A stretch of 54,218 nt of DNA from an uncultured Acetobacteraceae bacterium (GTDB lineage Bacteria > Pseudomonadota > Alphaproteobacteria > Acetobacterales > Acetobacteraceae), in assembly GCA_937902425.1 (NCBI GenBank), contig CALFNB010000490.1, forward strand, positions 1 through 54,218, read 5' to 3'. The position numbers and the translations under genes were made by a program. Below the pieces are notes generated by a model. The model was not told the DNA's origin, made no database searches, and was given only the letters and a program-made list of their open reading frames with translations. This document shows, one piece after another, positions 838 through 46,190 of this stretch (positions are counted from its first letter, which is position 1; the number at the start of each line of letters is the position of its first letter).

Positions 838-1728
838 ATGTCCATCGCCATACGTCCACTCGGCAACCAGTTCGCGGCGGAAGTCACCGGGCTCGATCTG
901 AGCGGTGCCATCGACGCGGCCGGCATCGCCGCGATCTGGCGGGCCATCGACGATTTCTGCGTGCTGGTGTTTCGCGATCAGTCACTGAGCGATCGCCAGT
1001 TGCACGACTTCGCCGCCCGCTTCGGACCGCTGGAGATCGGCCGCGCCGCCGCGAGGCCCGGACGGCGGCGGCTGTCGATCCCGCAGATCGGCGACATCTC
1101 CAATCTCGACGAGGACAATCGGGTCCGCGACCTGTTCGACCGCCGCCGGCTGGATTCGCTCGGCAACCGGTTGTGGCACACCGACGCGTCCTATATGCCG
1201 GTGCCCGTCGTACTGGGCATGCTCCATGCGGTCGCGCTGCCTCCTCCATCGCCGTTCGGCAATGGCGAGACCGAGTTCGCCGACATGCGCGCCGCTTACG
1301 ACGCGTTGCCGGACGCGACCAAAGCCGCGATCAACGATCTGGTGGTGGAACATGACGTGTTCTGGTCACGCGCTTTGGTCGGATTCACCGATTTTCCTCA
1401 GGCCGAGAAGGATCAATACCCGCCGTCACCGCAACGACTGGTTCGCACCCATCCCGGGTCAAAACGCAAGACATTATATTTGTCGGCGCACGGCTCGCAT
1501 GTGGTTGGTTGGCCGGTGGCGGACGGACGGTTGCTGCTGCTGGATCTCAGCGCGCACGCGACGCGGGAACGTTTCGTCTACCGCCATGAATGGCGCGTCG
1601 GCGATCTGGTGATCTGGGACAATCGTTGCACGATGCATCGCGGCCGGCCGCACGACGAAACCAAGGCGCGCGATCTGCGGCGCGCCACCACGTTGGATCA
1701 AGGCTCCACCCTCAGTGAGGCAGCGTAA
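838..1728 (+). CDS. TauD/TfdA family Fe(II)/2-oxoglutarate dioxygenase (paralog 1)
   Basis: A 296-residue member of the taurine / 2,4-D dioxygenase family. Such enzymes couple decarboxylation of 2-oxoglutarate to hydroxylation beside a sulfonate, ether or similar group of an organic acid. The iron triad is visible: H114 and D116 in LWHTDASY, and the distal His at about 267 in WDNRCTMHRG. The 2-oxoglutarate-binding arginine is in RDLRRATT (about 281-282). GGAGGAG precedes the ATG. It is the most divergent of six paralogs here: HTD instead of HSD, and a proline-rich stretch (HAVALPPPSPFGNGE) where the others have SLLSGR or SLLSAR. It stands alone, more than 31 kb from the other five. Substrate unknown. 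Confidence 0.9.
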   Translation: MSIAIRPLGNQFAAEVTGLDLSGAIDAAGIAAIWRAIDDFCVLVFRDQSLSDRQLHDFAARFGPLEIGRAAARPGRRRLSIPQIGDISNLDEDNRVRDLFDRRRLDSLGNRLWHTDASYMPVPVVLGMLHAVALPPPSPFGNGETEFADMRAAYDALPDATKAAINDLVVEHDVFWSRALVGFTDFPQAEKDQYPPSPQRLVRTHPGSKRKTLYLSAHGSHVVGWPVADGRLLLLDLSAHATRERFVYRHEWRVGDLVIWDNRCTMHRGRPHDETKARDLRRATTLDQGSTLSEAA

Positions 1729-28099: not shown

Positions 28100-28142
28100 T
28101 CCAGGATGACGCTCGCCGACGAACCTCTAATGGTCACCTGAT

Positions 28143-31166: not shown

Positions 31167-32162
31167 TTACTTCTTCAGCACCTCCGGATTGGTGACGCGC
31201 ACCGGCGTCCCGTCCATGAACGCCAAAGCGTTCTCGATCATCTGCGGATAGAAACCGTCCCAGGTCTCCTTCACCCCATAACCCATGTGCGGCATCAACA
31301 CCGTGTTGGATAACCGGCGCAGCGGGTGATCCACGGGCGACGGCTCTTTGTCGTACACATCCAGAGCGGCGATGATTCGGTTATCCTGCAACGCGGCCAG
31401 CATCGCCTCTTCGTCGACGATCGGACCGCGCGACGTGTTGATCAGGATCGCGCCCTGTTTCATCAGGGCGATGTCCGCCGTCCCGATCAGTCCGCGGCTG
31501 CGCGGCGACAACACCAGATGGATCGAAATTGCATCGGAATCGTGCATCAGGTCCTGCTTCGAGACCAGTGTGACGCCGACTTCCTTGCAGCGCTCAGCCG
31601 TCAGGTTCTGGCTCCAGGCGATCACGTTCATCCGCAACGCGAGGCAATATCGCGCCATATAGCCGCCCAACCGGCCGAGACCGACGATCCCCATGGTTTT
31701 TCCGGCGAGGCCAATCCCGACCGGCACGCCCATCTGGAACAACTCGTGCCGCATATTTTCGTCGCCCTTCGGAATGCCGCGCGCCGCCGCGAGCAGCAGA
31801 CCAAGCGCCAGTTCCGCGGTCGCCGAATCAGAATAGCCGCCGCCTTGCGTATTGCTCACGACAATGCCGCGCGCCGTGCAGGCCGGCGTATCGAGCGACG
31901 CGTTGCGCGCCCCGGTCATCCCCAGCATCCGCAGTTTCGGCAAGCGGTTGATCAGCGAACCTGGCAACGGCGTGCGCTCCCGCATCGACAGGACGATGTC
32001 AAAGTCCGCGAGTTGCGCCGCGGCGTCGTCCTCATCGCTGAACGCGTCCTGGAAAATCGTGACGTCGGCGCGCGATTCCAGCTCAAACCAGTCAGCGCTC
32101 TGCCGCGCCACACCCTGCCAGTCGTCCAGCACCGCGACTTTGGTTTTGTTGCCGCCGCTCAT
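31167..32162 (-). CDS. D-2-hydroxyacid dehydrogenase family protein
   Basis: A 331-residue NAD-dependent D-2-hydroxyacid dehydrogenase. The nucleotide loop is GIVGLGRLGGYMARY. Active-site elements are LINTSRGPIVDEEAML (Arg), a Glu near AALDVYDKEPSP, and the catalytic His in LMPHMGYGVKE. The His is followed by MGYG rather than the common IGG/LGG. The N-terminus KVAVLDDWQGVARQ is typical of a PhoD/SerA-like subgroup. GAGGAGGGAT precedes ATG 32162. It would interconvert a 2-oxo and a D-2-hydroxy acid, or reduce glyoxylate. It is divergent from the 3-hydroxyacyl-CoA dehydrogenase gene. Confidence 0.9.
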   Translation of the reverse strand: MSGGNKTKVAVLDDWQGVARQSADWFELESRADVTIFQDAFSDEDDAAAQLADFDIVLSMRERTPLPGSLINRLPKLRMLGMTGARNASLDTPACTARGIVVSNTQGGGYSDSATAELALGLLLAAARGIPKGDENMRHELFQMGVPVGIGLAGKTMGIVGLGRLGGYMARYCLALRMNVIAWSQNLTAERCKEVGVTLVSKQDLMHDSDAISIHLVLSPRSRGLIGTADIALMKQGAILINTSRGPIVDEEAMLAALQDNRIIAALDVYDKEPSPVDHPLRRLSNTVLMPHMGYGVKETWDGFYPQMIENALAFMDGTPVRVTNPEVLKK

Positions 32163-32271: not shown

Positions 32272-32322
32272 ATCATCACCGCCCAAATGCTATCATCGCT
32301 GCATTCCGCGGGAGTTCGTCGC

Positions 32323-33258
32323 ATGACCAAAGTCGCCGTCATCGGAGCCGGCCTGATCGGCCGCTCCTGGGCCATCGTTTTCGCCCGTGCCGGATTTTCG
32401 GTGAACCTCTGGGATCCGTTTCCGCGGCAGACCGCCGCCGCGATGACGTTCATCGCCGAGCGGCTACCGGAATTGCGTCATGCAAGCCTGCTGGCGGACG
32501 AACCGGACGTCGTTCTCGCCCGTATCACGCCGTTGCCATCGATGTGGGAGGCGGTAAAGGACGTTGTCCACGTGCAGGAAAACGGCCCCGAGCAGGTTTC
32601 GGCGAAGCAGGCGTTGTTCGCGGAACTGGATCGCGCGGCGAAACCGGACGTGGTGCTGGCCAGTTCAACCAGCGGCATTCCCGCCAGCGTGTTCACCGAA
32701 ACATTGAAGCATCGCGAGCGCTGTCTGGTCGCGCATCCGGTAAACCCGCCTTACCTCGTGCCGCTGGTGGAGCTTTGCCCAGCGCCGTGGACGGACGCGG
32801 GAGTGGTGGAGCGGACGAGGGATTTGATGCATCGCGCGGGTCAGGTGCCGGCGACGGTGAAGAAGGAAATGGACGGGTTCGCGCTGAACCGGCTGCAAGG
32901 CGCGCTGCTGGCCGAGGCGTTTCGTCTGCTCGCCGATGACGTGATTTCGCCGGCCGATCTCGATGCGCTGGTGAAACACGGGCTCGGCTTGCGGTGGAGT
33001 TTCATGGGACCGCTGGAAACGATCGACCTCAACGCGCCGGGCGGGCTGAAGGATTACTGCGAGCGCTATGGGCCGCTTTACGCGAAGCTGCAGGAACAGG
33101 CGGTGCCGCTGAAATGGGATGCGGCACTGGTCAATCGGCTGCACGAGGCGCGCCGCGAAGAGTTGCCGTTGAACATGGCACCGGTCCGGCAGGAGTGGCG
33201 CGACCGGCGGTTGATGGCGTTGCTGGCCCATAAGGCCGGACAACCGGATCGCAGTTGA
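32323..33258 (+). CDS. 3-hydroxyacyl-CoA dehydrogenase family protein
   Basis: A 311-residue protein with an N-terminal NAD Rossmann loop KVAVIGAGLIGRSWAIVFARAGF. LASSTSGIPASVF and CLVAHPVNPPYLVPLVELCP carry the catalytic Ser/His region (the HP.NPP motif), and a C-terminal 3HCDH domain has GFALNRLQGALLAEAFRLL. Single-domain enzymes of this length include L-gulonate 3-dehydrogenase (lambda-crystallin-like) and carnitine 3-dehydrogenase, which share the NPPYLVPLVE motif; beta-oxidation FadB-type enzymes are larger. GGGAG precedes ATG 32323. It lies 85 bp upstream of the dioxygenase array, on the same strand. Confidence 0.88.
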   Translation: MTKVAVIGAGLIGRSWAIVFARAGFSVNLWDPFPRQTAAAMTFIAERLPELRHASLLADEPDVVLARITPLPSMWEAVKDVVHVQENGPEQVSAKQALFAELDRAAKPDVVLASSTSGIPASVFTETLKHRERCLVAHPVNPPYLVPLVELCPAPWTDAGVVERTRDLMHRAGQVPATVKKEMDGFALNRLQGALLAEAFRLLADDVISPADLDALVKHGLGLRWSFMGPLETIDLNAPGGLKDYCERYGPLYAKLQEQAVPLKWDAALVNRLHEARREELPLNMAPVRQEWRDRRLMALLAHKAGQPDRS

Positions 33259-33343
33259 GCCGCACCCCTTTGCCGCACCCCTATGGCAAAACCTGCTGGT
33301 TGACGCATATACTTACCGGTAGCACCGCGTCGGAGCGTTCGGA

Positions 33344-34249
33344 ATGTCATTGTCCATCGGCCCCCTCACCCCATCCGGTTTCGCCGGAGAGGTTTCGGGC
33401 ATCGATCTGACCCGTCCCTTGGACCCGGAGCAGGTGGCGGCGATCGACGCCGGCATGGACCGTTACGGCGTGCTGGTGTTTCACGATCAGCGCTTCGACG
33501 ACGCGTCGCAAATGGCATTCAGCCGTTACTTTGGTGAGTTGGAAGTATCGTCTGGCGCAGAAATGAGCAAAGCCCAGGACCGGCGGCTGCCGCGAATGGA
33601 AATGGCGGACATCTCCAATCTGGATCGCGACGGCAAGCTCCGGGCTGCGTCGGATCGGATGCGGCTGACGGCGTTGGGCAACCGGTTGTGGCATTCCGAT
33701 GCCTCGTTTCGCGCGGTTCCGGCGAAGTACTCGTTGTTATCGGCACGTAACGTTCCCGGCACCGGCGGCAATACCGAATTCGCCGACATGCGAGCCGCCC
33801 ATGATGCGCTTGACGAAGCAACGAAAGCCGAGATCGAGGACCTGATCACCGAACACTCCAACGCCTGTTCGCGGGAGCAGATCGGCTTCATGAAAGCCGA
33901 CTACGGCGAGGAGAATCAGCTCAAACTGAAGCCGGTCCGGCATCGGCTGGTGCGCCATGATCCGCGCACCGGACGCAAGACGCTGTATCTGTCCGCGCAT
34001 ATTGGCTCGATCGTCGGCTGGCCGGTACCGGAGGCGCGGATGCTCATTCGCGACCTGATCGAGCAGGCGGTGCAACGCAGGTTCGTCTATGTACATGTCT
34101 GGCGGCAATGGGACCTGGTGATCTGGGACAACCGCACCACGATGCATCGCGCACGGCGCTATAACGATCTGACGGATGTACGCGACATGCGGCGCACCAC
34201 CATTCGCGGCGACGGCGTCACGGTCGCTCAGGTCCAGGAAGCAGCGTAA
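33344..34249 (+). CDS. TauD/TfdA family dioxygenase (paralog 2)
   Basis: A 301-residue Fe(II)/2-oxoglutarate dioxygenase. The iron triad is H117 and D119 in RLWHSDASF and H268 in WDNRTTMHRARR; the co-substrate Arg is in RDMRRTT (283-284). The sequence around the HxD motif (LGNRLWHSDASFRAVPAKYS, then TEFADMRAAHDALD) is closer to TfdA (2,4-dichlorophenoxyacetate dioxygenase) than to TauD (judged by eye). It is first of three tandem dioxygenase genes separated by 12 bp and 3 bp, so one transcript is likely. Substrate unknown. Confidence 0.92.
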   Translation: MSLSIGPLTPSGFAGEVSGIDLTRPLDPEQVAAIDAGMDRYGVLVFHDQRFDDASQMAFSRYFGELEVSSGAEMSKAQDRRLPRMEMADISNLDRDGKLRAASDRMRLTALGNRLWHSDASFRAVPAKYSLLSARNVPGTGGNTEFADMRAAHDALDEATKAEIEDLITEHSNACSREQIGFMKADYGEENQLKLKPVRHRLVRHDPRTGRKTLYLSAHIGSIVGWPVPEARMLIRDLIEQAVQRRFVYVHVWRQWDLVIWDNRTTMHRARRYNDLTDVRDMRRTTIRGDGVTVAQVQEAA

Positions 34250-34261
34250 AATCGGGAGAAG

Positions 34262-35164
34262 ATGGGAATGAATATTCGGGCGGTTCAGAACGGCTTCGTC
34301 GGCGAAGTCACCGGCATCGACATTTGCAAGCAGCTCACCAGCGATGAGGTCGCGGCGATCGAGCGAGGCATGGATCAGTACGCCGTGCTGACCTTCCCCG
34401 ATCAGCCGCTGACCGATGAGCAGCAGGTGACCTTCACCGCCAATTTCGGCGCGCTGGAAATCACCCTCGCCGGGCAGATGGCCAAACCGGAGGAGCGCCG
34501 GTTTCAACAGCTCGAACTCGGCGACATTTCTAACTTCAATGGCGCCGACACCACGCGGTTGCGGGCGCGCGACGACAAGCGGCGGATGTACGCGCTGGCG
34601 AACCGGCTGTGGCACTCGGACGCCTCGTTCCGCGCGATCGGCGCCGGCTACACGTTGTTGCATGCACGTATCGTGCCGAGCCGCGGCGCCGACACCCAGT
34701 TCGCCGACATGCGCGCCGCTTATGACGCGCTGAGCCCGTCCGAGAAGGCCGAGGTTGAAGACCTGATCTGCGAACACTCGATCGTGTTCTCCCGCGAGCA
34801 AATCGGTTTCGGCGACTACAATCCTGGGCATGAGGAGCATCTGAAGCCGGTGCCGCACCGGCTGGTGCTCACGCATCCGAAGACCGGCCGGAAGTCGCTG
34901 TATCTGTCGTCACATATCGGCGGCATCGTGGGCTGGCCCGTGCCGGAGGCACGCGCGTTCATTCGCGACCTGACCGAGCACGCGACGCAGCCTCAGTTCG
35001 TCTACAGTCACAAGTGGCGGGTCGGCGACATGGTGATTTGGGACAACCGCACCGTCTTGCATCGCGCCACGCGTTTCCGCGACCTGGAGGAGGTGCGCGA
35101 TCTGCGGCGGACCTCGATCAAGGGCGTTGGCCTGGAAGTGAAACAGGCGATGGCGGCGGAATAA
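34262..35164 (+). CDS. TauD/TfdA family dioxygenase (paralog 3)
   Basis: A 300-residue paralog with iron ligands H118, D120 (RLWHSDASF) and H267 (WDNRTVLHRAT), and 2-oxoglutarate Arg in RDLRRTS (282-283). It differs from its neighbours by ADTQFADMRAA (Gln for Glu), TVLHR for TTMHR, and an LHARIVPSRG stretch over the substrate pocket, so its specificity may differ. GGGAGAAG lies only 3 bp before the first ATG but about 9 bp before the second (34268), so the protein may start two codons later (MNIRAVQ). Confidence 0.92.
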   Translation: MGMNIRAVQNGFVGEVTGIDICKQLTSDEVAAIERGMDQYAVLTFPDQPLTDEQQVTFTANFGALEITLAGQMAKPEERRFQQLELGDISNFNGADTTRLRARDDKRRMYALANRLWHSDASFRAIGAGYTLLHARIVPSRGADTQFADMRAAYDALSPSEKAEVEDLICEHSIVFSREQIGFGDYNPGHEEHLKPVPHRLVLTHPKTGRKSLYLSSHIGGIVGWPVPEARAFIRDLTEHATQPQFVYSHKWRVGDMVIWDNRTVLHRATRFRDLEEVRDLRRTSIKGVGLEVKQAMAAE

Positions 35165-35167
35165 TCC

Positions 35168-36061
35168 ATGCCGATCAGCGTGCGGCCTCTGCATGACCTG
35201 TTCGTGGGCGAGGTCGGCGGTATCGATCTGACGCGTCCCCTCGCACCCGAGGACGTCGCCGCGATCGAGGCGGCGATCGCGGAACACGCCGTCCTGGTGT
35301 TCCGCGATCAGCGCGTCACGGACGAACAGCAACTCCGGTTCAGTCGTTATTTCGGTGAACTGGAGGAAACCCGCGGCACCGGCATCAGCAAGCCGGGCGA
35401 GCAACGCCTGCATCCGGCCTTCGCCGACGTGTCCAATCTGGACAAGGACAACACGGTGCTGGCGCGCGACAACCGGCGGCGGCTGTACAGCCTTGGCAAC
35501 ATGTCGTGGCATTCGGACAGCTCGTTCAAGCCGATCCCCGCCGCGTATTCGTTACTGTCGGGCCGTGTCGTGGTGGACCGCGGCGGTGAAACGGAATTCG
35601 CCGACATGCGCGCCGCGCACGACGCGCTGGATGACGAAACGAAGGCCGAGATCGCCGATCTGATCTGCGAACACTCGCTGATCTTCTCGCGCGAGTCACT
35701 GGGCTTTGACGATCTGACCGAAGCGGAACGCGCCACCATGCGGCCGGTGCGGCAGGTGCTGACGCGGACGCATCCGATCAGCGGGCGAAAGTCGATCTAT
35801 CTGGCCTCGCACATCGGCGAGATCATCGGCTGGCCGGTGCCGGAGGCGCGCGCCTTCATCCGCGACCTGACCGAGCACGCGACGCAACGCCAGTTCGTTT
35901 ATGCACACAAGTGGCGGCCGTTCGACCTGGTGATGTGGGACAATCGCTGCACGATGCATCGCGCGCGGCGTTACGACGCCACCAAGGTGCGCGACATGCG
36001 GCGGACGACCGTGGCCGGCGCCGCGCCAACCGTTGCCCAGGAAGCGATCGCGGCGGAGTGA
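35168..36061 (+). CDS. TauD/TfdA family dioxygenase (paralog 4)
   Basis: A 297-residue paralog beginning 3 bp after the previous stop, without its own clear ribosome site, which suggests translational coupling. Iron ligands are H115, D117 (NMSWHSDSSFK) and H264 (WDNRCTMHRARR), with Arg at 278-279 (RDMRRTT). The Ser in MSWHSD replaces the Leu of RLWHSD found in the other four clustered copies. It is the last of the left triplet; a 238-bp gap then leads to the transporter binding-protein gene. Confidence 0.92.
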   Translation: MPISVRPLHDLFVGEVGGIDLTRPLAPEDVAAIEAAIAEHAVLVFRDQRVTDEQQLRFSRYFGELEETRGTGISKPGEQRLHPAFADVSNLDKDNTVLARDNRRRLYSLGNMSWHSDSSFKPIPAAYSLLSGRVVVDRGGETEFADMRAAHDALDDETKAEIADLICEHSLIFSRESLGFDDLTEAERATMRPVRQVLTRTHPISGRKSIYLASHIGEIIGWPVPEARAFIRDLTEHATQRQFVYAHKWRPFDLVMWDNRCTMHRARRYDATKVRDMRRTTVAGAAPTVAQEAIAAE

Positions 36062-36299
36062 TGCGACGGATCGGGGGAGCTCAACCGCCGAGCGGCACGC
36101 CGGGCCTTGCCGCATGGGCGCGGCGACCGCATCCGCCGCCCAGCTCCTGAAAAGCCGATTTTTCGCATGCGGGAATGAGGGGCGGCGCACATACCCCCTT
36201 GCCCCGGACGCACGGTCCGTTCAATCCTCCGCCGTGTTCGCTTCACGGGCAGCCGTCAGGGGCCGCCATCAATCAAGCTCGAAGAGCAGGGAGACCAAA

Positions 36300-37541
36300 A
36301 TGATCACGCGTCGCGCCGCCGCCCGTTTGCTTGCCGGAACCACCGCCACCGCCGCTCTTGGCGCCGGGCTCAGCCCAGTACTGGCGGCCGATAAGGTCAT
36401 CAAGATTGGTGCCGACCTCTCGCTCACCGGCGCCGACGCCGAGGGCGCCACAAGGGTCAAGGACGGTATCATCATGGCGGTGGATGCCGCCAACCAGGGC
36501 AATGCCGTCCCGGGCTACACATTCGAGTTGCTGACATTGGACGACGGCACCGCCACCGCCGGCCAATATGATCCGGCGCAGGCGGCGACCAACGCGCGCA
36601 AGATGGTATCCGATCAGGATGTCGTCGCGGCGATCGGCCCACAGATGAGCGGCGCCGGCAAGGCGATGGCGCCAATCCTCAGCCAGGGTGACCTCGCCAC
36701 CATCACGCCAAGTTCGACAAATCCAGACATCACCAACCCGAAATTCGCGGAACAATACCGGCCGGCCGGCAAGCCGATCTATTTCCGCACGGTCACCACG
36801 GACGCCTTTCAGGGCCCCAACATGGCCAATTACATGGCCGAGAAACTGAATATCAAATCCGTCTATGTGCTTGATGACAGCGGCGCCTACGGCGTGGGAC
36901 TGGCGGATGCGTACCAGGCGCAAATTGAGAAGAAGGGCGTCAAGGTACTGGGCCGCGACCGGCTGGACCCGAAAGCGGCCGACTACATGACGGTGCTCAC
37001 CAAGATCAAGGCGCTCAATCCGGAGGCGTTGTATTATGGCGGCGTCGGCCAGGCCGGCATCAAGCTGGCCAAGCAGGCCTACGACATCATTCCGAACACG
37101 ATCAAGGCGGGCGGCGACGGCGTCTATGGTGCGTCGTTCCTGATCGGCACCGGTTTCCCGGCCGCCGACGGTTGGTATGCGACAATTGCCTCGCCGCATC
37201 TCACCGCCGACACCAAAGCCGCCAACTTCGTCAAGGCCTTCACCGACCGCTTCGGCGTGGCACCGGAGGACTATTCAATTACCGCCTATGACGCCGCGCT
37301 GGTCATCATCGACGCCGTGAAGCGCGTGGCCGCTTCCGGGAAACCGGTCACCAGAAGCGCGGTACGCGACGCCATCCAGACCGCCAAGGTGCCGACGATC
37401 CAGGGCATCGTGTCATTCGACGCCAACGGCGATCTCGCCGACCGCACCGTCAGCGTGTTCCAGATCAAGAAAGATACCAGCGCGAAGCTGGATGATATAT
37501 CAGCCCAGTACCACTACATCGACGTGGCACCGCAGGTTTAG
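36300..37541 (+). CDS. Branched-chain amino acid-type ABC transporter substrate-binding protein
   Basis: A 413-residue LivK/Peripla_BP_6 protein. The N-terminus MITRRAAARLLAGTTATAAL, ending near SPVLAADK, is an export signal, possibly Tat-type because of the RR pair. The mature part starts VIKIGADLSLTGADAEGATRV. DVVAAIGPQMSGAGKAMAPI, ITPSSTNPDITNP and FFRTV-like YFRTVTTDAFQGPNMA are family blocks. It binds a small organic ligand in the periplasm for the LivH/LivMG/LivF machinery downstream. Homologues take amino acids, amides, urea or aromatic acids. GGGAG precedes ATG 36300. Confidence 0.92.
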   Translation: MITRRAAARLLAGTTATAALGAGLSPVLAADKVIKIGADLSLTGADAEGATRVKDGIIMAVDAANQGNAVPGYTFELLTLDDGTATAGQYDPAQAATNARKMVSDQDVVAAIGPQMSGAGKAMAPILSQGDLATITPSSTNPDITNPKFAEQYRPAGKPIYFRTVTTDAFQGPNMANYMAEKLNIKSVYVLDDSGAYGVGLADAYQAQIEKKGVKVLGRDRLDPKAADYMTVLTKIKALNPEALYYGGVGQAGIKLAKQAYDIIPNTIKAGGDGVYGASFLIGTGFPAADGWYATIASPHLTADTKAANFVKAFTDRFGVAPEDYSITAYDAALVIIDAVKRVAASGKPVTRSAVRDAIQTAKVPTIQGIVSFDANGDLADRTVSVFQIKKDTSAKLDDISAQYHYIDVAPQV

Positions 37542-37551
37542 TTCCACACCG

Positions 37552-38481
37552 ATGACGCTGTTCGATCTGCTGCTGCAGCAGACGATCAACGGACTTAGCC
37601 TGGGTGCGATGTACGCGTTGCTCGCGCTCGGGTTTACTTTGGTCTACGGCATTCTGGAGCTGATTAATTTTTCCCATTTCAACGTCTTCATGGTGGGTTC
37701 GTTCATCGCCATGGGGGTGTTGCAACTGTTTGGCCTGACCGGTCAGGACGTGATCCTGACCGGTTTGCCGTTGGTGGGTGTGCTGCTGGTGACTTTCGCC
37801 GTCACCATGGTGTCGTCCGGCGCGATCGGCGTCGCGATCGAGCGTCTGTCGCTGCGGCCGTTACGCAACGTCAAGGGGCCGGCGGCGATGATCACCACCA
37901 TCGGCGTATCGTACATCCTGTTCAACATCATCCTGCTGGTGTGTGGCGCGGAGGCGAAGAACTATCCCAACCCAATGCCGACGGTGCGTTACCACATCGC
38001 CGGCGCCGTGCTGGATCTGCGCGTCGTGCTGATCTGGATCGTGGCGCTGGTGCTGATGGGCGGGCTGTATCTGTTCGTGCAGAAAAGCCGGATCGGCAAA
38101 GCAATGCGCGCCACCGCGCAGGATGCCGAGGCCGCGCGCATGATGGGCGTGGATGTGGACCGGGTCGTGATGATGGCGTTTTTCCTCGGCTCGGCACTGG
38201 CCGGGGCGGGCGGGCTGATCTTTGGCCTGTACTACAACTTCACCAGTTTCATCATCGGCTTCACCGCCGGGCTGCGCGCGTTCACCGCCGCGGTGCTTGG
38301 CGGCATTGGCAACGTGCCGGGCGCGATGGTGGGTGGCGTGATCATCGGCATGATCGAGGCGATGGGCGGGCAGTTCATCGCCACCGCCTGGACCGACGTG
38401 ATCATCTTCTCGATCCTGGTGCTGGTCCTGGTGTTCAAACCAGCCGGTTTGTTCGGGCGTATGGCGCCGACCAAATCGTGA
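37552..38481 (+). CDS. livH: ABC transporter permease, LivH type
   Basis: A 309-residue inner-membrane permease of the branched-chain amino acid family. The start LLLQQTINGLSLGAMYALLALGFTLVYGILELINFSHF is the family signature, followed by AIERLSLRPLRN, a cytoplasmic loop with IGKAMRATAQDAEAARMMGVD (the EAA-like ATPase contact) and the C-terminal FTAAVLGGIGNVPGAMVGG. ATG 37552 lies 10 bp after the binding-protein stop, with no strong ribosome site; coupling is likely. Confidence 0.93.
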   Translation: MTLFDLLLQQTINGLSLGAMYALLALGFTLVYGILELINFSHFNVFMVGSFIAMGVLQLFGLTGQDVILTGLPLVGVLLVTFAVTMVSSGAIGVAIERLSLRPLRNVKGPAAMITTIGVSYILFNIILLVCGAEAKNYPNPMPTVRYHIAGAVLDLRVVLIWIVALVLMGGLYLFVQKSRIGKAMRATAQDAEAARMMGVDVDRVVMMAFFLGSALAGAGGLIFGLYYNFTSFIIGFTAGLRAFTAAVLGGIGNVPGAMVGGVIIGMIEAMGGQFIATAWTDVIIFSILVLVLVFKPAGLFGRMAPTKS

Positions 38482-38491
38482 GGCCAACGTC

Positions 38492-40555
38492 ATGACCAAC
38501 GGCGTCACCGCCACTCTGGCGCGGCCATTCGAGCACATTCCCGACGCGTGGCGTCAGCCTTTGGGCCTGACATTGCTGATCGCCGCCGCGGTACTGTTTC
38601 CGTTGGTGCACACCAACGACGCCGACATCGACAGCATGGCGAACGCGGCGGCGTACGCCGTACTGGCACTCGGCCTGAACATCGTGGTGGGCTTCGCGGG
38701 ATTGCTCGATCTCGGCTACGCCGCGTTCTTCGCCATCGGCGCCTACACCTACGGCATCCTGAGTTCGTTCCAGTTGCAGCCGGAATGGTCGTCGTTCTGG
38801 GAGCCGTTTCGCATTCTCGGCCTGGTCCATAAGATGGCGGCCGACACCGGTGACGGCAGCGTTGTGCGCTTTACTCTGTCATTCTGGTTGGCGCTGCCGC
38901 TGTGTGCCGGCTTCGCCGCGTTCTGGGGCGTGATGTTCGGCGCACCGACATTGCGGCTGAGGGGCGACTACCTGGCAATCGTTACCCTGGGCTTTGGTGA
39001 GATCGTGCCGATCGTCGTGCGTAACTGGTCGGATCTGACCAACGGCGCCGCCGGTCTGAACGGGGTCTCGGCACCGAAACTGTTCGGCTGGAGTTTCGGG
39101 GTCAATTCGACACCGTATTATTACGTCGCGATCGCTCTCGTGGCACTGCTGATCTTCATCTCGATCCGATTGCGCGATTCACGCATCGGCCGCGCCTGGA
39201 TGGCGATCCGGGAAGATGAGATCGCCGCCGGCGCGATGGGCGTCAATCGCACCAAATTCAAATTGCTGGCGTTCGCCATTGGCGCCGCGTTCGGCGGCAT
39301 GACCGGTGTGTTCTATGTCGCCAAGCTACAGACCGCGACGCCGGAGATGTTCGGCTTCCCGGTCTCGGTGATGATCCTGGTGATGATCGTGTTCGGCGGC
39401 ATCGGCAGCGTCTGGGGCGTGGTGCTCGGCGCGTTCATTCTGCAACTGTTGCAATCCTGGTGGCTGGAAGACCTCACCGGCTGGCTGAATGTTCTCGGCC
39501 GCGCGGTGCATAGCGACTGGCTGGCGCACATCGATCTGGTGCCGTCGATCGAACTGATTTTCGGCTTCATCCTGGTCGGCATGATGCTGTTCCGCCGCCA
39601 GGGGCTGATCCCGGCGACCCGGCCTCAGACGGCACTCAGCTTCGACCAGCAGCACGCGGAAATCCGCCGCGGCGGTTTCAACGATTTGAAACTGCAAGGT
39701 CTGGGCGGCGACGTACGCACCGGCGCGCTGGCGCTGGAGATCAAAGGCGTGACGGTGAAGTTCGGCGGCCTGACCGCGCTGAACAACGTCGATCTGGTGG
39801 TGCCGAACGGTGGCGTGGTGGCGGTGATCGGGCCGAACGGTTCCGGCAAGTCGACCTTGTTCAACCTGGTTACCGGGCTGTTGGATGTCGGCGACGGCTC
39901 CATCCGCTTCCACGGCGAGGAAATTCTGGGCTTGCCGCCGCATGAGATCCTGACCAAGGGGATCGCCCGCACCTTCCAGAATCTGCGGCTGTTCCCGAAC
40001 CTGACGGTGATGGAGAACGCGCTGATCGGGCAGCACGCCCGCCTGACCACGGGAGTCCTGCAGGCGATCCTGCGTCCGCCCAGTACGCGCGCCGAAGAAG
40101 CCGCGGCGCGTGTGTGGGCCATGGAGGTGTTCGCCATTTTCGGCAATCGGTTGACGCCCCGGGTCGGGCAAATGGTCGCGGGCCTGTCCTATGCCAACCG
40201 GCGGCGGATCGAGATCGCGCGCGCGCTGGCGTCGCGGCCGCGCATTTTGCTGCTGGATGAGCCGACCGCCGGCATGAACCCGGCGGAGACGCTGGAACTG
40301 GCCGAGCAGATCAAAAGTCTGAATATGTTGGGACTGACCGTGCTGCTGATCGAGCACAAGCTGGACGTCGTGACCACGCTGGCCGACACGGTCTATGTGC
40401 TCGACCATGGCGAGGTCATCGCCCAGGGGACGCCGGCGGAAGTAAGGCGGGATGAGGAAGTGCTGCGGGCTTATCTGGGGCGGAACGCTCAGGCGGCGGC
40501 GGGAATGGCGCCTGCAGGAATGGCAAGCGTGCCTCTGCCGACTTTGGGACAGTGA
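38492..40555 (+). CDS. Fused LivM permease - LivG ATP-binding protein
   Basis: A 687-residue fusion. Residues about 30-375 are a LivM permease (AAYAVLALGLNIVVGFAGLLDLGYAAFFAIGAYTYG, TLRLRGDYLAIVTLGFGEI, VFGGIGSVWGVVLGA). Residues about 410-670 are an ABC ATPase: Walker A GPNGSGKST (K453), a Q-loop in ARTFQNLRLFP, a signature reading LSYANRRRIEIARAL in place of LSYGQQRR-type, and Walker B ILLLDEPTAGMNP (D589). LivM and LivG are usually separate proteins; fusion fixes one permease and one ATPase in one chain. GAGG lies before the ATG. Expected partners are LivH and LivF on either side. Confidence 0.93.
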   Translation: MTNGVTATLARPFEHIPDAWRQPLGLTLLIAAAVLFPLVHTNDADIDSMANAAAYAVLALGLNIVVGFAGLLDLGYAAFFAIGAYTYGILSSFQLQPEWSSFWEPFRILGLVHKMAADTGDGSVVRFTLSFWLALPLCAGFAAFWGVMFGAPTLRLRGDYLAIVTLGFGEIVPIVVRNWSDLTNGAAGLNGVSAPKLFGWSFGVNSTPYYYVAIALVALLIFISIRLRDSRIGRAWMAIREDEIAAGAMGVNRTKFKLLAFAIGAAFGGMTGVFYVAKLQTATPEMFGFPVSVMILVMIVFGGIGSVWGVVLGAFILQLLQSWWLEDLTGWLNVLGRAVHSDWLAHIDLVPSIELIFGFILVGMMLFRRQGLIPATRPQTALSFDQQHAEIRRGGFNDLKLQGLGGDVRTGALALEIKGVTVKFGGLTALNNVDLVVPNGGVVAVIGPNGSGKSTLFNLVTGLLDVGDGSIRFHGEEILGLPPHEILTKGIARTFQNLRLFPNLTVMENALIGQHARLTTGVLQAILRPPSTRAEEAAARVWAMEVFAIFGNRLTPRVGQMVAGLSYANRRRIEIARALASRPRILLLDEPTAGMNPAETLELAEQIKSLNMLGLTVLLIEHKLDVVTTLADTVYVLDHGEVIAQGTPAEVRRDEEVLRAYLGRNAQAAAGMAPAGMASVPLPTLGQ

Positions 40556-40558
40556 CCC

Positions 40559-41281
40559 ATGTTGCTTGAGTTCCGGCACGTCGATACTCATTACGGCGAT
40601 CTGCACGTCCTCAAGGACGTCAACTACGCCATCGAGCCAGGCGAGATCGTTGCGCTGCTAGGTGGCAACGCCAGCGGCAAGTCCACCACGATGAAGACGA
40701 TCATGGGCGTGGTGCGCCCCACGCGAGGCCAGGTGATTTATGACGGCGAGCCGATCGAGCGCCTCGCCACCGCCGAGCGGGTGCGCCGCGGCATTGCTCC
40801 GGTGCTGGAAGCGCGCCGGTTGTTCCCTCGCATGACCGTGTTCGAGAACCTGGAAATGGGCGCCTATCTGCGCAAGCGGGGCGCCGAGTTCGACCAGGAC
40901 CTGGAGCGGGTTTATTCGCTGTTTCCTCGGGTGAAGGAACGCCACGGCCAGATCGCCGGCACGCTGTCGGGCGGTGAACAGCAGATGGTGGCGATGGGGC
41001 GCGCGCTGATGGCGCGGCCTCGGCTGTTGTGCATGGACGAGCCGTCGATGGGCCTGGCGCCGATCTTCGTGGAGCAAACCTTTGACATCATCCAGGAGAT
41101 CAACCGGCAGGGCACCACGATCTTCATGGTGGAGCAGAACGCCAACATGGCACTGTCGATCGCGCACCGAGCCTATGTGTTGCAAACCGGGCAGGTCGTG
41201 CTGTCCGGCACCGCGGCGGAACTCCGCCAGAACCCCATGATCCGCGAGGCCTACCTGGGCGAGTTGCAGGTGGAGACGTGA
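40559..41281 (+). CDS. livF: ABC transporter ATP-binding protein, LivF type
   Basis: A 240-residue LivF ATPase. Walker A is LLGGNASGKSTTMK (K41), with GNASGK where GANGAGK is usual, the signature is LSGGEQQMVAMGRALM, Walker B is LLCMDEPSMGLAP, and the switch His region is IFMVEQNANMALSIAHRAYVL. It starts 3 bp after livM-livG and completes the transporter. The MVEQN stretch is typical of LivF rather than LivG. Confidence 0.95.
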   Translation: MLLEFRHVDTHYGDLHVLKDVNYAIEPGEIVALLGGNASGKSTTMKTIMGVVRPTRGQVIYDGEPIERLATAERVRRGIAPVLEARRLFPRMTVFENLEMGAYLRKRGAEFDQDLERVYSLFPRVKERHGQIAGTLSGGEQQMVAMGRALMARPRLLCMDEPSMGLAPIFVEQTFDIIQEINRQGTTIFMVEQNANMALSIAHRAYVLQTGQVVLSGTAAELRQNPMIREAYLGELQVET

Positions 41282-41322
41282 CTTCCACCGACCTTTACGC
41301 GAAGTGCGCGCGCGGACGACGC

Positions 41323-41343
41323 CATGGCCCGGCTCGGGCCATG
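41323..41343. repeat. REP-like palindrome after livF
   Basis: CATGGCCCG-GCT-CGGGCCATG has perfect 9-bp arms and a 3-nt loop, 41 bp after the livF stop and 53 bp before the next dioxygenase. It may separate the transporter transcript from the right dioxygenase pair. Confidence 0.7.
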
Positions 41344-41396
41344 ACATGCTACTCAATCCGGCGGATGGGGAATGATTTCAGGAGGCCCGGCATAAA

Positions 41397-42254
41397 ATGC
41401 GCATCACCCCCATCAACGAAGGCTTCGCCGCCGAATTCGCCGACGTTGACCTGACGCGGCCGGTCTCCGGCGACGTGGTCGCCGCCATCGAATCCGGAAT
41501 GAATCAATACGCAATGCTGGTATCTCGCGATCAGGCGCTGAACGACGATACCCAACGCGACTTCACCCGCCGCTTCGGCCCGTTGGAGGCGGCGTCCGGC
41601 GGTCACGTCACCGCCACGTCTGACCGCCGTCTGCCACTCGATATGCAGGACGCATCCAATCTGGATCAGCATCAACGCGTGCTCGCGCGCGATGACCGGC
41701 GACGGATGTTCAATCTGGGCAACCGGCTGTGGCATTCCGACAGTTCGTACCGTCCCGTCACCGCGCGGTATTCATTACTGTCCGGACGGATCGTGGTGAC
41801 GGACGGCGGACGCACCGAATTCGCCGACATGCGCGCCGCGTATGACGCGTTGGACAACGAAACGAAAGCCGAGATCGAGGACCTGGTGTGTGAGCACTCG
41901 CTGATGTTCTCCCGCGGCATACTGGGCTTTACCGCGCTGTCCGAGGCGGAACGCACGATGTTCGAACCCGTCCGCCACAAGCTGGTTCGCACCCACCCCT
42001 CGACCGGCCGGAAATCGCTGTTCCTGTCCGCTCATGCCGGCGCGATCGTCAACTGGCCGGTGCCCGAGGCCCGCGCCTTCCTGCGCGACCTGATCGAACA
42101 CGCGACACAGCGCCGGTTCGTTTACTCGCATGTCTGGCGACGGAACGATCTGGTGATGTGGGACAATCGCACCACCATGCATCGCGTGACGCGGTTCGAT
42201 GAAAGCCAAATTCGCGATCTGCGCCGCACCACCGTCGCGGGGATCGCCGCCTGA
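41397..42254 (+). CDS. TauD/TfdA family dioxygenase (paralog 5)
   Basis: A 285-residue paralog, shortest of the six because the C-terminus ends at TTVAGIAA. Iron ligands are H113, D115 (RLWHSDSSY) and H262 (WDNRTTMHRVTR), with Arg at 276-277 (RDLRRTT). LVSRDQALND replaces LVFRDQ in the second strand, and VNWPVPEAR replaces the VGWPVPEAR/IGWPVPEAR of the other clustered copies. AGGAGG lies 12 bp before the ATG. It is separated from livF by 115 bp that contain a hairpin. Confidence 0.92.
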   Translation: MRITPINEGFAAEFADVDLTRPVSGDVVAAIESGMNQYAMLVSRDQALNDDTQRDFTRRFGPLEAASGGHVTATSDRRLPLDMQDASNLDQHQRVLARDDRRRMFNLGNRLWHSDSSYRPVTARYSLLSGRIVVTDGGRTEFADMRAAYDALDNETKAEIEDLVCEHSLMFSRGILGFTALSEAERTMFEPVRHKLVRTHPSTGRKSLFLSAHAGAIVNWPVPEARAFLRDLIEHATQRRFVYSHVWRRNDLVMWDNRTTMHRVTRFDESQIRDLRRTTVAGIAA

Positions 42255-42317
42255 ATTTGTAAACCGCGGCGCCAGACCCTACATCTGTCCCGTCAGAAAT
42301 GCCTCGAAGGGTCCGCC

Positions 42318-43202
42318 ATGACGATTGACATCCGTCCATTGACTCCGGAGTTCGCCGGTGAGGTTTCCGGCGTTGATCTCACGCACCCGTTGACCTCCGC
42401 CGAGGTCGCCACGCTGGAAGCGGGAATGGATCGCTTCGCGGTGCTGGTTTACCACCGCCAGGCCGTCACCGATGAGCAGCAGAAGGCCTTCAGCCTGAAT
42501 TTTGGCGCGCTGGAACAGATCGAAGGCGGCAACGTAACCCAGGCCAAAGACCAGCGGCTCGGGGCGTTCATGGCGGATGTCTCCAATCTGGACGTCAACC
42601 ACAAACCGCTGGCGCGCGACGATCGGCGACGGATGTTCAATCTGGGCAATCAGCTCTGGCACTCCGACAGTTCGTTCCGGGCGATCCCGGCGAAGTATTC
42701 CATCCTGTCCGGCCGGATCACCGTCGACAACGGCGGCCGCACCGAATTCGCCGACATGCGCGCCGCGTATGACGCACTCGACGCCGCGACCAAGGCGGAA
42801 ATCGAGGACCTGATCTGCGAGCACTCGCTGCTTTACTCGCGCGGCACGTTGGGGTTCACCGATCTTTCCGACGGCGAACGCGCGATGTTCAAACCCGTGC
42901 GCCAGCGCCTCGTCCGCACCCACCCCGTCACTGGGCGAAAGTCCCTGTATCTGGCATCGCATATCGGTAGCATCATCGGCTGGCCCGTGCCGGAAGCGCG
43001 CGCATTCATCCGCGATCTGACCGAGCACGCGACGCAGCCACAATTCCTCTACAAACACGTTTGGAAACAATACGATATGGTCATGTGGGACAACCGCTCG
43101 ACGATGCATCGGGTGACGCGGTTCGATGATACCCAGGTGCGCGACATGCGCCGCACCACCGTCGCCGGAGACAGCGTGACCGTGGAGCAACTGGCCGCCT
43201 GA
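42318..43202 (+). CDS. TauD/TfdA family dioxygenase (paralog 6)
   Basis: A 294-residue paralog with iron ligands H115, D117 (QLWHSDSSFR) and H264 (WDNRSTMHRVTR), and Arg at 278-279 (RDMRRTT). It shares MHRVTRFD and LLYSRGTLGF/MFSRGILGF features with paralog 5, so these two look like the most recent duplicates (by eye). LVYHRQAV replaces LVFRDQ. It is 63 bp after paralog 5 and 19 bp before the MBL-fold hydrolase, probably one operon. Confidence 0.92.
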   Translation: MTIDIRPLTPEFAGEVSGVDLTHPLTSAEVATLEAGMDRFAVLVYHRQAVTDEQQKAFSLNFGALEQIEGGNVTQAKDQRLGAFMADVSNLDVNHKPLARDDRRRMFNLGNQLWHSDSSFRAIPAKYSILSGRITVDNGGRTEFADMRAAYDALDAATKAEIEDLICEHSLLYSRGTLGFTDLSDGERAMFKPVRQRLVRTHPVTGRKSLYLASHIGSIIGWPVPEARAFIRDLTEHATQPQFLYKHVWKQYDMVMWDNRSTMHRVTRFDDTQVRDMRRTTVAGDSVTVEQLAA

Positions 43203-43221
43203 CCGGCAGCCAGGCAGCACG

Positions 43222-44256
43222 ATGGACATTCAGGCCCTGACGTTTCCCCACGCGGCAGCGCCCGCGCCCGGTGAAGTCGTGCGCATCGCGCAAGGCGTGT
43301 TGTGGTTTCGCCTGAAACTACCGTTTCAGCTCAATCACGTGAACATCTATCTCATCGAGGACGACGACGGCTGGCTGGCGCTCGACACCGGGCTGGGCAC
43401 CGACGATTGCCGGGTCGGTTGGGACAATATCCTGACCGGACCGTTAAAGGGCGAGCGGCTCAGTTCCATGCTGGTGACGCATTTTCACCCGGATCATGTC
43501 GGGCTCGCGGGATGGCTCGCGCAATCCTTCGGGCTGCGACTGGCGATGCCGCGCACCGAGTATTTGTATCATCTGATGGCGGCACACGGCCGCGGCGACA
43601 TGTACGACGCGGCGCATCGCGAGTTCTATCATTCCAACGGTCTTTCGGCTGAAACGACCGACGTCATCCTCGGTAGCGGCCTGAATTACCTCCGGCTGAC
43701 CACCGGCGTGCCGCACGCATACGAGCGGATCAGGCACGGCGACACGCGACGGATCGGTGGTCGTGACTTCAAAGTCCTGACCGGTGGCGGCCATGCGCTG
43801 GAGCAGGCAATGCTGCACCAGGCATCGGAGCAACTGTTCTTCGCGGCGGATCAGGTGATCGCGCGCATTTCCCCAAATGTCAGCGTGCATCCCGTGGAGC
43901 CCGAGGAAGATCCCCTGGGCATCTACCTGCACGACCTGAAAGCGCTGCGTGCGACGGTACCGCATGACGTTCTGGTACTCCCCGGTCACGGGCTGCCGTT
44001 CCATGGCCTGCACGCCCGCATCGATGAACTGATCGAGCATCACGCCCAGAGATGTGCCCGGATCGCCGACGGGTGCCGCCCGCGGCCATTATCCGCCGCC
44101 GAACTGGTGCCAACCCTGTTCGACCGGGAGCTTGACGCGCACCAGACCGGGTTCGCGTTCGGCGAAGTGCTCGCCCATGTGAATTACATGGCGAAACGCG
44201 GCGAACTCGCGCGCGAGACCGGCAACGACGGAGTGTTTCGTTACCGAGCGGCCTGA
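43222..44256 (+). CDS. MBL-fold metallo-hydrolase
   Basis: A 344-residue metallo-beta-lactamase-fold enzyme. The metal motif is THFHPDHVG (H87, H89, D91, H92), later ligands are the His of TGGGHALEQ, Asp in LFFAADQVIA and His in LVLPGHGLPF. A roughly 100-residue C-terminal helical extension (HHAQRCARIADG, then PTLFDRELDAHQTGFAFGEVLAHVNYM) is the winged-helix type found in LACTB2-like thioesterase/nuclease members. It sits between the dioxygenase pair and the acetamidase gene. A role in hydrolysing a CoA-thioester or ester intermediate is possible but unproven. Confidence 0.88.
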   Translation: MDIQALTFPHAAAPAPGEVVRIAQGVLWFRLKLPFQLNHVNIYLIEDDDGWLALDTGLGTDDCRVGWDNILTGPLKGERLSSMLVTHFHPDHVGLAGWLAQSFGLRLAMPRTEYLYHLMAAHGRGDMYDAAHREFYHSNGLSAETTDVILGSGLNYLRLTTGVPHAYERIRHGDTRRIGGRDFKVLTGGGHALEQAMLHQASEQLFFAADQVIARISPNVSVHPVEPEEDPLGIYLHDLKALRATVPHDVLVLPGHGLPFHGLHARIDELIEHHAQRCARIADGCRPRPLSAAELVPTLFDRELDAHQTGFAFGEVLAHVNYMAKRGELARETGNDGVFRYRAA

Positions 44257-44323
44257 CAGCGGCCTTGCCGGCCGGTTGCGAATTGCGCACACTTCGCGCT
44301 GGCCAAAACGGGGGCATGCGCGA

Positions 44324-45328
44324 ATGGCGCGTTCAGCGAAGGCTCAATGGACGGATCAATCCATCGCGGCGCGCCGCGGGGTTGGTTGGGCGAAAAAGCC
44401 GGTATCGCATAACCTGACCGAGGCGTTGCAGGGCAAGTTCCATTACACGATCGGTCCTTATTCGGATCCGGTGCTCACCGTAGCGCCGGGCGACCGCATT
44501 CGGATCGAGACCCGCGACGCCTTCGGGGGCGCGATCCGCACCGAACGCGATAAGCCGACCAAACGGTTGCGCATGCCGTTCGTCAACCCGCAGAACGGTC
44601 CCATTATGATCGAGGGCGCCGAACCTGGCGACGCGCTGGCGGTGCACATCGAAAGCATGCTCCCGCGCGGCGAAAACCCGTGCGGCACCTGCTGCATGAT
44701 CCCGTATTTCGGCGCTCTGACAGGCACAACGCTGACCGCCACGCTCAACGCGCCGCTGCCGGAACTGACGCGCAAAATCCATGTGGACGAAAAACACGTG
44801 CGCTGGAGCACGCGCGTGACGCTGCCCTATAGCCCGCATATCGGCACGCTCAGCACGTCGCCCGAGATCGACTCGATCAATTCGCTGACACCTGACTCGC
44901 ATGGTGGGAACATGGACTTGCCGGATATGGGGCCCGGCAGCATCACCTACCTGCCGGTACGCACGCCCGGAGCGCGGCTGTTCATCGGCGACGCCCACGC
45001 CTGTCAGGGCGACGGCGAAGTCTGCGGCACAGCCGTCGAGTATCCCTCGACCACGACCATCCGGGTCGACGTCATCAAAGGCTGGACATTGGAATGGCCG
45101 CGCCTGGAGCGCGAGGACTTCATCATGACCATCGGCAGCGCGCGTCCGCTGGAGGACGCCACGCGCATCGCCTATCGCGAACTCGTGCTGTGGATGGAGG
45201 CGGAGTACGGTTTCGATCGCTGGGATGCGTACATGATGCTCAGCCAGTGCGGCCGCGTGCGTCTCGGCAATTTCGTCGATCCGAAATATACGGTCGGCGC
45301 CGGCATCCTGAAGACATATCTGGCGTAG
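44324..45328 (+). CDS. Acetamidase/formamidase family protein
   Basis: A 334-residue FmdA/AmdA protein. Blocks are HYTIGPYSDPVLTVAPGDRI, RIETRDAFGG, the loop NPQNGPIMIEGAEPGDALAVHI, then SPHIGTLSTSPEIDSINSLT, DSHGGNMDLPDMGPGSITYLPV, FIGDAHACQGDGEVCGTAVE and the C-terminal DPKYTVGAGILKTYL. These zinc-dependent enzymes hydrolyse formamide or acetamide to the acid and ammonia. The exact start is uncertain between 44276 and 44324; the latter has GGGG upstream and begins MARSAKAQWTDQS. It lies in the co-directional run following the dioxygenases. Confidence 0.88.
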   Translation: MARSAKAQWTDQSIAARRGVGWAKKPVSHNLTEALQGKFHYTIGPYSDPVLTVAPGDRIRIETRDAFGGAIRTERDKPTKRLRMPFVNPQNGPIMIEGAEPGDALAVHIESMLPRGENPCGTCCMIPYFGALTGTTLTATLNAPLPELTRKIHVDEKHVRWSTRVTLPYSPHIGTLSTSPEIDSINSLTPDSHGGNMDLPDMGPGSITYLPVRTPGARLFIGDAHACQGDGEVCGTAVEYPSTTTIRVDVIKGWTLEWPRLEREDFIMTIGSARPLEDATRIAYRELVLWMEAEYGFDRWDAYMMLSQCGRVRLGNFVDPKYTVGAGILKTYLA

Positions 45329-45339
45329 GAGACTTCGTC

Positions 45340-46101
45340 ATGGACCTCGGCCTTTCGGGGATGAAGGCATTGATCACCGGCGGTACCAAAGGCATCGGCC
45401 GCGCCGTTGCCGAACACTTCGCGGCGGAGGGTGCCGATGTCGCGATTTGCGCACGCGACGCCGCCGGGGTGACCCAGGCCGTGGCAACTCTCGCGTCGCG
45501 CGGTGTGCGAGCGACCGGGCGCGCGTTGGATGTCTCCGATGGACCGGCATTGACCGGCTGGGTTACGGACGCCGCGAACGAACTGGGCGGCCTCGACATC
45601 GTCGTATCGAATGTCTCCGCGCTGGCGATCGGTCAGGATGAGACGTCGTGGCAGGCCGAATTCGCCACCGACATGATGGGCACGGTGCGCACCGTCAACG
45701 CGGCGATGCCGTTTCTGGAGCAGTCCAAAGCCGCGTCGATCGTCGTCATCGCCTCGGTCTCAGGCCGGGAAGTGGATTTCGCGGCGGGCCCCTATGGCGT
45801 GTTCAAGGCGGCGCTCATTCATTACGCGAAGGGATTGTCGTATCAACTCGCCGGACGCAACATCAGGGTCAACGCGCTGTCGCCGGGGAATACGTACTTC
45901 CCTGGCGGGGTCTGGGAGAAGATTGAGCATGGCAACCCGGAACTGTTCAAACAGGCGATGGCGCTCAATCCGACCGGGCGTATGGGACGGCCGGAGGAAA
46001 TGGCGCGGGCGGTGGTGTTTCTGGCCAGCCCGGCGGCGAGTTTCGTTACTGGGACGAATCTTGTGGTCGATGGGGCCCTGACCAGAGGGGTGCAGTTCTA
46101 A
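45340..46101 (+). CDS. SDR family oxidoreductase
   Basis: A 253-residue short-chain dehydrogenase. The cofactor loop is ALITGGTKGIGRAVAEHF. DIVVSNVSALAIG replaces the usual NNAG. Ser is in VVIASVSGRE, the catalytic pair is YGVFKAALIHY, and FVTGTNLVVDGAL is the C-terminal strand. It resembles the 3-oxoacyl-ACP reductase-like SDRs with an SNVS motif. It starts 11 bp after the acetamidase stop with TAGGAG upstream and ends the rightward run that began at 33344. Confidence 0.9.
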   Translation: MDLGLSGMKALITGGTKGIGRAVAEHFAAEGADVAICARDAAGVTQAVATLASRGVRATGRALDVSDGPALTGWVTDAANELGGLDIVVSNVSALAIGQDETSWQAEFATDMMGTVRTVNAAMPFLEQSKAASIVVIASVSGREVDFAAGPYGVFKAALIHYAKGLSYQLAGRNIRVNALSPGNTYFPGGVWEKIEHGNPELFKQAMALNPTGRMGRPEEMARAVVFLASPAASFVTGTNLVVDGALTRGVQF

Positions 46102-46122
46102 AAAGAAGGGCGCTGCCCTGAA

Positions 46123-46190
46123 CCCGCTGGGGCCTTGAGGCCCCAGACCCCCATCCCCCGCTGGGGCCTTGAGGCCCCAGACCCCCATCC
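46123..46190. repeat. Perfect 34-bp tandem duplication, each copy a hairpin
   Basis: The 34-bp unit 46123-46156 is repeated exactly at 46157-46190. Each unit contains CTGGGGCC-TTGA-GGCCCCAG, an 8-bp perfect stem with a 4-nt loop, so two identical hairpins stand side by side between the convergent SDR and moeA genes. Likely a transcription-end structure for both. Confidence 0.9.

Follow-up and report, generated by a model that had tools for sequence, protein, structure and literature searches.

The described systems closest to the locus considered here are the TfdA-alpha dioxygenases of Bradyrhizobium together with AAD-2 (Protein Data Bank (PDB) entry 5bke), the canonical TfdA of the 2,4-dichlorophenoxyacetate (2,4-D) plasmid pDB1, TauD of Escherichia coli, and RdpA/AAD-1. 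In pDB1, tfdA lies beside tfdK, which encodes a transporter of the major facilitator superfamily (MFS), and beside chlorocatechol genes (accessible portion of PMC10531765). In Bradyrhizobium, tfd pathway genes are not found alongside tfdA-alpha, and no native substrate of TfdA-alpha is named, in the accessible portion of PMC8446748. Here, we describe five genes for iron-dependent enzymes of this kind, T1 to T5, kin of soil-bacterial enzymes able to cleave phenoxy-acid herbicides, in a 54,218-nucleotide stretch of DNA from an uncultured Acetobacteraceae bacterium (GenBank assembly GCA_937902425.1, contig CALFNB010000490.1, positions 1 to 54,218), hereafter the window. They are arranged on the forward strand as three dioxygenase genes, a Liv-type ATP-binding cassette (ABC) transporter in the order substrate-binding protein (SBP), LivH, LivMG, and LivF, and two further dioxygenase genes. 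T1–T3 and T5, and also T4, which is intact only here, are most likely (probability about 0.7) active Fe(II)/2-oxoglutarate (2OG) dioxygenases of the TfdA-alpha/AAD-2 type, inherited as an old tandem array of a Rhodopila-like genus, to which the Liv genes and a pair of amidase and short-chain dehydrogenase/reductase (SDR) genes would be later additions, unless they were lost elsewhere. The array is a real, recurrent arrangement of a known enzyme class and is itself uncharacterised; the literature covered on Rhodopila and TauD and on tandem TfdA paralogues in Acetobacteraceae, a coverage outside which most subscription journals fall, holds nothing on it.

An initial annotation of the window had listed five intact genes at positions 33344, 34262, 35168, 41397, and 42318 on one strand, in the order three, transporter, two, each with a full H-x-D...H triad and RR motif, and this description stands. 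The open reading frames (ORFs) of T1 (33344..34249), T2 (34262..35164), T3 (35168..36061), T4 (41397..42254), and T5 (42318..43202) are open throughout, and all five match the TauD/TfdA family model PF02668 over nearly its full length with 183–203 bits against a cut-off of 27 (E values 1e-53 to 9.9e-60, with 4e-55 for T1, 1.7e-55 for T2, 9.9e-60 for T3, and 8.9e-57 for T4). The spacing is 12 bp between T1 and T2 and 3 bp between T2 and T3. Identity to T5 is 60% for T1, 56% for T2, 64% for T3 and for T4, and 44% for T0, a distantly related sixth family member that was found by the ORF scan outside the array (838..1728, forward strand). The triad residues H115, D117, and H264 (T5 numbering) and R275, R278, and R279 are invariant in T1–T5 and T0; in the array alignment T142 and the Fe-, 2OG-, and acid-binding residues are likewise invariant. 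The 2OG-binding roles of T142 and R275 are presumed here by carry-over from TauD.

By sequence and by fold alike, the closest solved structure is 5bke, with 415 bits to T5 over 294 residues and 381 bits to T3. Since 5bke (AAD-2) shares 96.6% identity with a gene of Bradyrhizobium betae, it is of the TfdA-alpha type. A model of T5 (predicted local distance difference test score, pLDDT, of 91) aligns with the seven 5bke chains at template modelling (TM) scores of 0.83–0.96 and 58–64% identity. The Fe and 2OG residues are the same, and in the tree T5 and its orthologues fall together with Bradyrhizobium TfdA-alpha and 5bke (support 86), T5 being the nearest of the five to these enzymes; the first assignment of the genes to TfdA-type enzymes is borne out. 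Each fetched Bradyrhizobium locus carries one such gene, whereas the window holds five diverged paralogues together. T5 is 45–46% identical to pDB1 TfdA and has in common with it the L-W-H-S-D-S motif, Ser-Arg at the positions of TauD 158–159, and the same Arg residues at 266 and 270. RdpA/AAD-1 has the same fold (5bk9 and 6d0o, TM 0.76–0.80 against the T5 model) but only 27–28% identity.

TauD resembles the array proteins in its Pfam family, its Fe and 2OG residues, the equivalents of Arg270, Asn95, and Ser158, and its fold (TM about 0.8 to the T5 model), but is 26–28% identical, and several of its taurine contacts are changed in the array. H70 is replaced by T, S, or A and Y73 by G or T (the alignment is unsure at both positions), D94 by G or A, F159 by R, a replacement common to TfdA, and F206 mostly by I or A. 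Sulfonates, which had been entertained as substrates, do not suit these five positions, none of which is TauD-like, although N95, S158, and R270 are kept. T1–T5 are predicted to belong to the TfdA-alpha/AAD-2 class rather than to that of TauD, T5 directly and T1–T4 by way of a wider clade in which T4 is poorly placed.

In the tree (185 rows, built by a quick method, with support only from the Shimodaira–Hasegawa-like approximate likelihood ratio test, SH-aLRT), T1 (support 98) and T2 (94) form sister clades (100), T3 has a clade of its own (100), T4 sits on a long branch without a settled position, and T0 groups with PDB entry 5j92 beyond the T1–T5 clade (84, on long branches); TauD itself is absent from it, and its distance to the T genes comes from the sequence and fold comparisons. 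This places T1, T2, T3, and T5 as separate, old orthogroups of the Rhodopila-like Acetobacteraceae genus. A row of T1, T2, and T3 and/or T5 was found in 20 of the 32 same-genus relatives of the window genome, with gene neighbourhoods taken for the best matches only, and the other 12 may still carry one; the view that related paralogues are kept side by side is upheld by this count. T3 is present in 11 rows, three of which also have T5 (directly in G010 and G021, after other genes in G027), and nine rows have T5 without T3. A contig end truncates two of the counted rows (G028 at T3, G019 at T1), and a locus with T1-T2 at its contig end (L220) was left out of the count. Partial sets occur as T2-T5 in G029, T1-T5 in G023, and T3-T2-T5 in G046, a genome of another genus. 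The paralogues are deep, as the initial annotation had allowed for in naming unrelated deep clades with neighbours elsewhere as an argument against its model, but T0 alone lies outside a wider TfdA-alpha clade that unites the others, and T1, T2, T3, and T5 are neighbours in relatives too.

Two side observations concern the family more widely. An Asaia bogorensis metagenome-assembled genome carries four TfdA-alpha-like genes in a row (L158, 840-4300), three of which group in another clade of the tree, and this looks like a second, independent tandem array. In five relatives (L076, L081, L082, L088, L091) T5 stands apart from the row, beside genes of one cluster; the member of that cluster that was searched (L076) is an MFS transporter, a kind of neighbour that pDB1 tfdA also has. 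The window genome (G000), a 6.8-Mb draft, contains 54 Peripla_BP_6 and 45 PF02668 matches, some of the latter being pieces of a single gene. The PF02668 number is the highest among the 33 genomes of the genus (range 3–45), but an expansion of TauD-family genes was rejected as a unique trait, several other genera of the family reaching at least about 19–20 matches in a 120-genome sample.

The ratio of nonsynonymous to synonymous substitution rates (dN/dS) against G027 and G006 is about 0.10 for T1, about 0.09 for T2, and 0.11–0.14 for T3, and spans 0.09–0.14 over T1, T2, T3, and T5; the values are rough, with dS at 0.7–1.3. Among the species compared, all four genes evolve under purifying selection. 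Several observations nevertheless weigh against an old, functional TfdA-alpha array. Against the more distant G010, dN/dS is 0.13–0.14 for three genes and 0.28 for T2. No intact T4 orthologue turned up in the fetched loci, and the degenerate counterpart in G027 (L061, 9442-9724) has lost its middle and adjoins a FAD_binding_3 gene. None of tfdBCDEF or tfdK was found among the searched neighbours, which are dehydrogenases, the Liv ABC genes, a metallo-beta-lactamase (MBL)-fold hydrolase, the amidase, and the SDR; this sets the array apart from pDB1 and is a likeness to Bradyrhizobium. Finally, deletion of tfdA-alpha in Bradyrhizobium RD5-C2 left the degradation of 2,4-D, 2,4,5-trichlorophenoxyacetate (2,4,5-T), 4-chlorophenoxyacetate, and phenoxyacetate unchanged, the cad genes carrying most of the phenoxy-acid degradation (PMC8446748, accessible portion), on which account the native substrates of TfdA-alpha may be other than phenoxy acids.

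By analogy with the family, Fe would be held by H115, D117, and H264 and 2OG by T142 and R275, giving a ferryl-oxo species that would hydroxylate a carboxylic acid at the carbon flanked by its carboxylate and hetero-atom; an aryloxyacetate hydroxylated in this way would fall apart into a phenol and glyoxylate. The putative substrates of the paralogues are probably natural acids related to one another. A bolder proposal, which we regard as improbable, is that the genus keeps an ancient TfdA-alpha battery that divides natural aryloxy- or related carboxylic acids, a native role older than the herbicides, and that in one lineage this battery became linked to an acquired importer and amidase–SDR module. 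Ten proteins encoded next to T5-type genes, in single loci of Bradyrhizobium, Reyranella, and Stella, reveal no common pathway; among them are SDRs, an alcohol dehydrogenase, a class II aldolase–SDR fusion, an aldo/keto reductase, and a nitroreductase. The native substrate of TfdA-alpha could well be sought by comparison across the recurrent array, whose four old orthogroups, all under purifying selection among the species compared, lend themselves to expression and screening one by one.

Divergence clustered around the pocket, another part of the initial annotation, is not what the alignment gives. The column test compared 22 rows for T1, 23 for T2, 14 for T3, and 29 for T5, window rows included, and left out T4 (one row), rows with internal stops, and rows below the identity thresholds; part of its 21 pocket positions are named in the accessible portion of PMC9304159. 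At least 90% conservation inside every group holds for 15 of the 21 pocket columns against 83 of 294 columns overall. Among these 83 columns 11 are group-specific, and one of the 11 is among the 15 pocket columns (enrichment P 0.905), and the clustering was rejected on this basis. The remaining pocket positions are likewise taken to line the pocket. The main differences between groups in the pocket are small: position 118 has Ser in T3/T5 but Ala in T1/T2, and position 266 has Val in T5 but mostly Ala in T1–T3. The motif differences quoted at the outset do exist in the window, but two of them are not features of the orthogroups: the Ser of "MSWHSD" in T3 occurs in one of 14 T3 rows (the preceding Met in 13 of 14), and the Gln of "DTQF" in T2 in three of 23 T2 rows. 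The Asn of "VNWP" in T4 is real in the window, where T4 is without an orthologue for comparison.

The transporter inside the array comprises, all on the forward strand, a Liv/HAAT-type periplasmic SBP (36294..37541, start chosen in an ORF open from 36033), a LivH-type permease (37552..38481, start chosen in a longer ORF; NF008011, 4e-63), a LivM-LivG fusion of permease and ATPase (38492..40555), and a LivF-type ATPase (40559..41281; NF008626, 1.6e-80). A LivHMGF set with a Peripla_BP_6 SBP is present, and its best NCBIfam matches are Liv models but stay below their own cut-offs. According to docking, Ser79, Thr102, and Tyr202 of LivJ contact the ligand (PMC6983066, accessible portion). Ser79 and Thr102 are kept in the SBP of the window, Tyr202 is replaced by Val and Glu226 by Asp. 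Glu226 of LivJ is presumably also a ligand-contact site.

The genes were first read as one co-expressed island of uptake and oxidative cleavage, with the Liv system importing acids that the five paralogues divide. They do lie closely spaced on the same strand, and their kinds meet repeatedly elsewhere, the amidase–SDR pair being found with Liv-type genes in G029 and with a TauD-family gene in G017, G019, and G020. The comparison with relatives makes the island unlikely nonetheless: the dioxygenase row recurs, but not one of the 20 rows found in the genus has Liv genes between its members. SBP orthologues (54–77%) are present in seven of the 32 relatives and the full cassette in six of these (L130–L135, with the same LivM-LivG fusion at 71–82%), yet no T genes were found near the six cassettes in the fetched 6–20 kb. 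Among five further SBP loci (L136–L140), L137 has two distant TauD-family genes (28–30%) at 13–16 kb from the SBP. In named genomes, the best 80 of 586 candidate loci include none with an orthologous cassette and 21 with a Liv-like gene of some kind at 28–49% identity in the fetched DNA. Within the window genome, the 45 PF02668 matches, less four fragments of counted genes, leave 41 that merge into 36 loci, three of which have an SBP within 5 kb; the 3.1 expected by chance, computed without regard to contig ends, puts this adjacency at chance level. The LivJ-like Ser/Thr contacts and the acidic residue at 226 also speak against the island, as do the gaps of 232 bp between T3 and the SBP start at 36294 and of 115 bp between LivF and T4. 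The second gap holds a GC-rich 9-bp hairpin without a T run (41323..41343, forward strand; RNA fold of 41310-41360 at -20.8 kcal/mol, z -2.3), possibly a transcription boundary. A promoter and terminator scan was uninformative, with 3 and 13 sites against 3.4 and 11.5 on average in shuffled sequence.

The nearest relative, G027, is collinear with the window over 32322-36061 and 42308-44235, including part of T4, but lacks both 36062-41396, the Liv cassette, and 44236-46188, the amidase–SDR pair; the FAD_binding_3 gene and the deleted T4 stand there instead. A chimera of assembly or binning could in principle place a foreign Liv block in a draft of 667 contigs (89% complete, 4.6% contaminated), but it is very improbable here. 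The block has a GC content of 63.1% against 63.6% and 62.8% in its flanks, both of which are collinear with G027, and its orthologues occur in the same genus, with dS to G015 of 0.80 (LivH) and 0.89 (LivF) against 0.74–1.12 for the T genes to G027 and G006, albeit between different species pairs. No exact match of at least 11 bp, direct or inverted, of the kind left by transposition, was found between the two Liv junctions. The insertion of a transporter into the array is known from one genome so far, and it cautions that adjacency in one genome is not proof of a functional link. Under the preferred reading of an inherited dioxygenase array, the cassette and the amidase–SDR pair would have been gained at the locus in the lineage of the window, or lost from others, and would stand outside the conserved unit.

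That pair consists of an acetamidase/formamidase family gene (44276..45328, start uncertain, forward strand; PF03069) with 87–92% orthologues in five of the 32 relatives and an SDR oxidoreductase gene (45346..46101, forward strand), and is found in L223–L227 and L232–L236. In the five relatives (L223–L227) the pair is 84–92% conserved among neighbours unlike those of the window, and it behaves as a two-gene cassette. A possible, if doubtful, account is that the Liv system takes up an amino acid or amide, perhaps together with this pair, and landed in the array by accident. Both inserts are missing from the otherwise largely collinear G027, the SBP ligand residues are LivJ-like, and Liv-type ATPase genes directly adjoin the pair in G029 and, in G023, an SDR of 73% identity accompanied by a diverged amidase (32–33%), whereas the Liv orthologues in L130–L135 are not beside the pair and in the window some 3 kb separate the two inserts. 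The TauD-family gene beside the pair in G017, G019, and G020 is another, unrelated one, and the three cases, which seem to go back to a single inherited arrangement, give weak support to a link between TauD-family, Liv, and amidase–SDR genes.

Downstream of T5, an MBL-fold hydrolase gene (43222..44256, forward strand; PF00753/PF21221) adjoins T5 in G027 and G006 as well. Upstream of T1, a gene of the 3-hydroxyacyl-CoA dehydrogenase family of PRK06129 type (32323..33258, forward strand, start chosen in a longer ORF; NF004783, 438 bits against a cut-off of 347) is also near T1 in these two genomes. In the two nearest relatives a protein without a Pfam match is encoded between this gene and T1 (L061, 12759-13451; L062, 12120-12803), for which the gap in the window (33258-33344) is too small. 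A D-2-hydroxyacid dehydrogenase gene resembling phosphoglycerate dehydrogenase (PGDH) and glyoxylate reductase (31167..32150 for the part searched, start unsettled, reverse strand; PF02826/PF00389, with PGDH as best NCBIfam match, below its cut-off) is divergent from the array, and its orthologue adjoins the array in G006 (L062). Further upstream, PrkA kinase and SpoVR genes lie at 26141-31006 with one gene between them (28143-29447), which we take to be YeaH-like.

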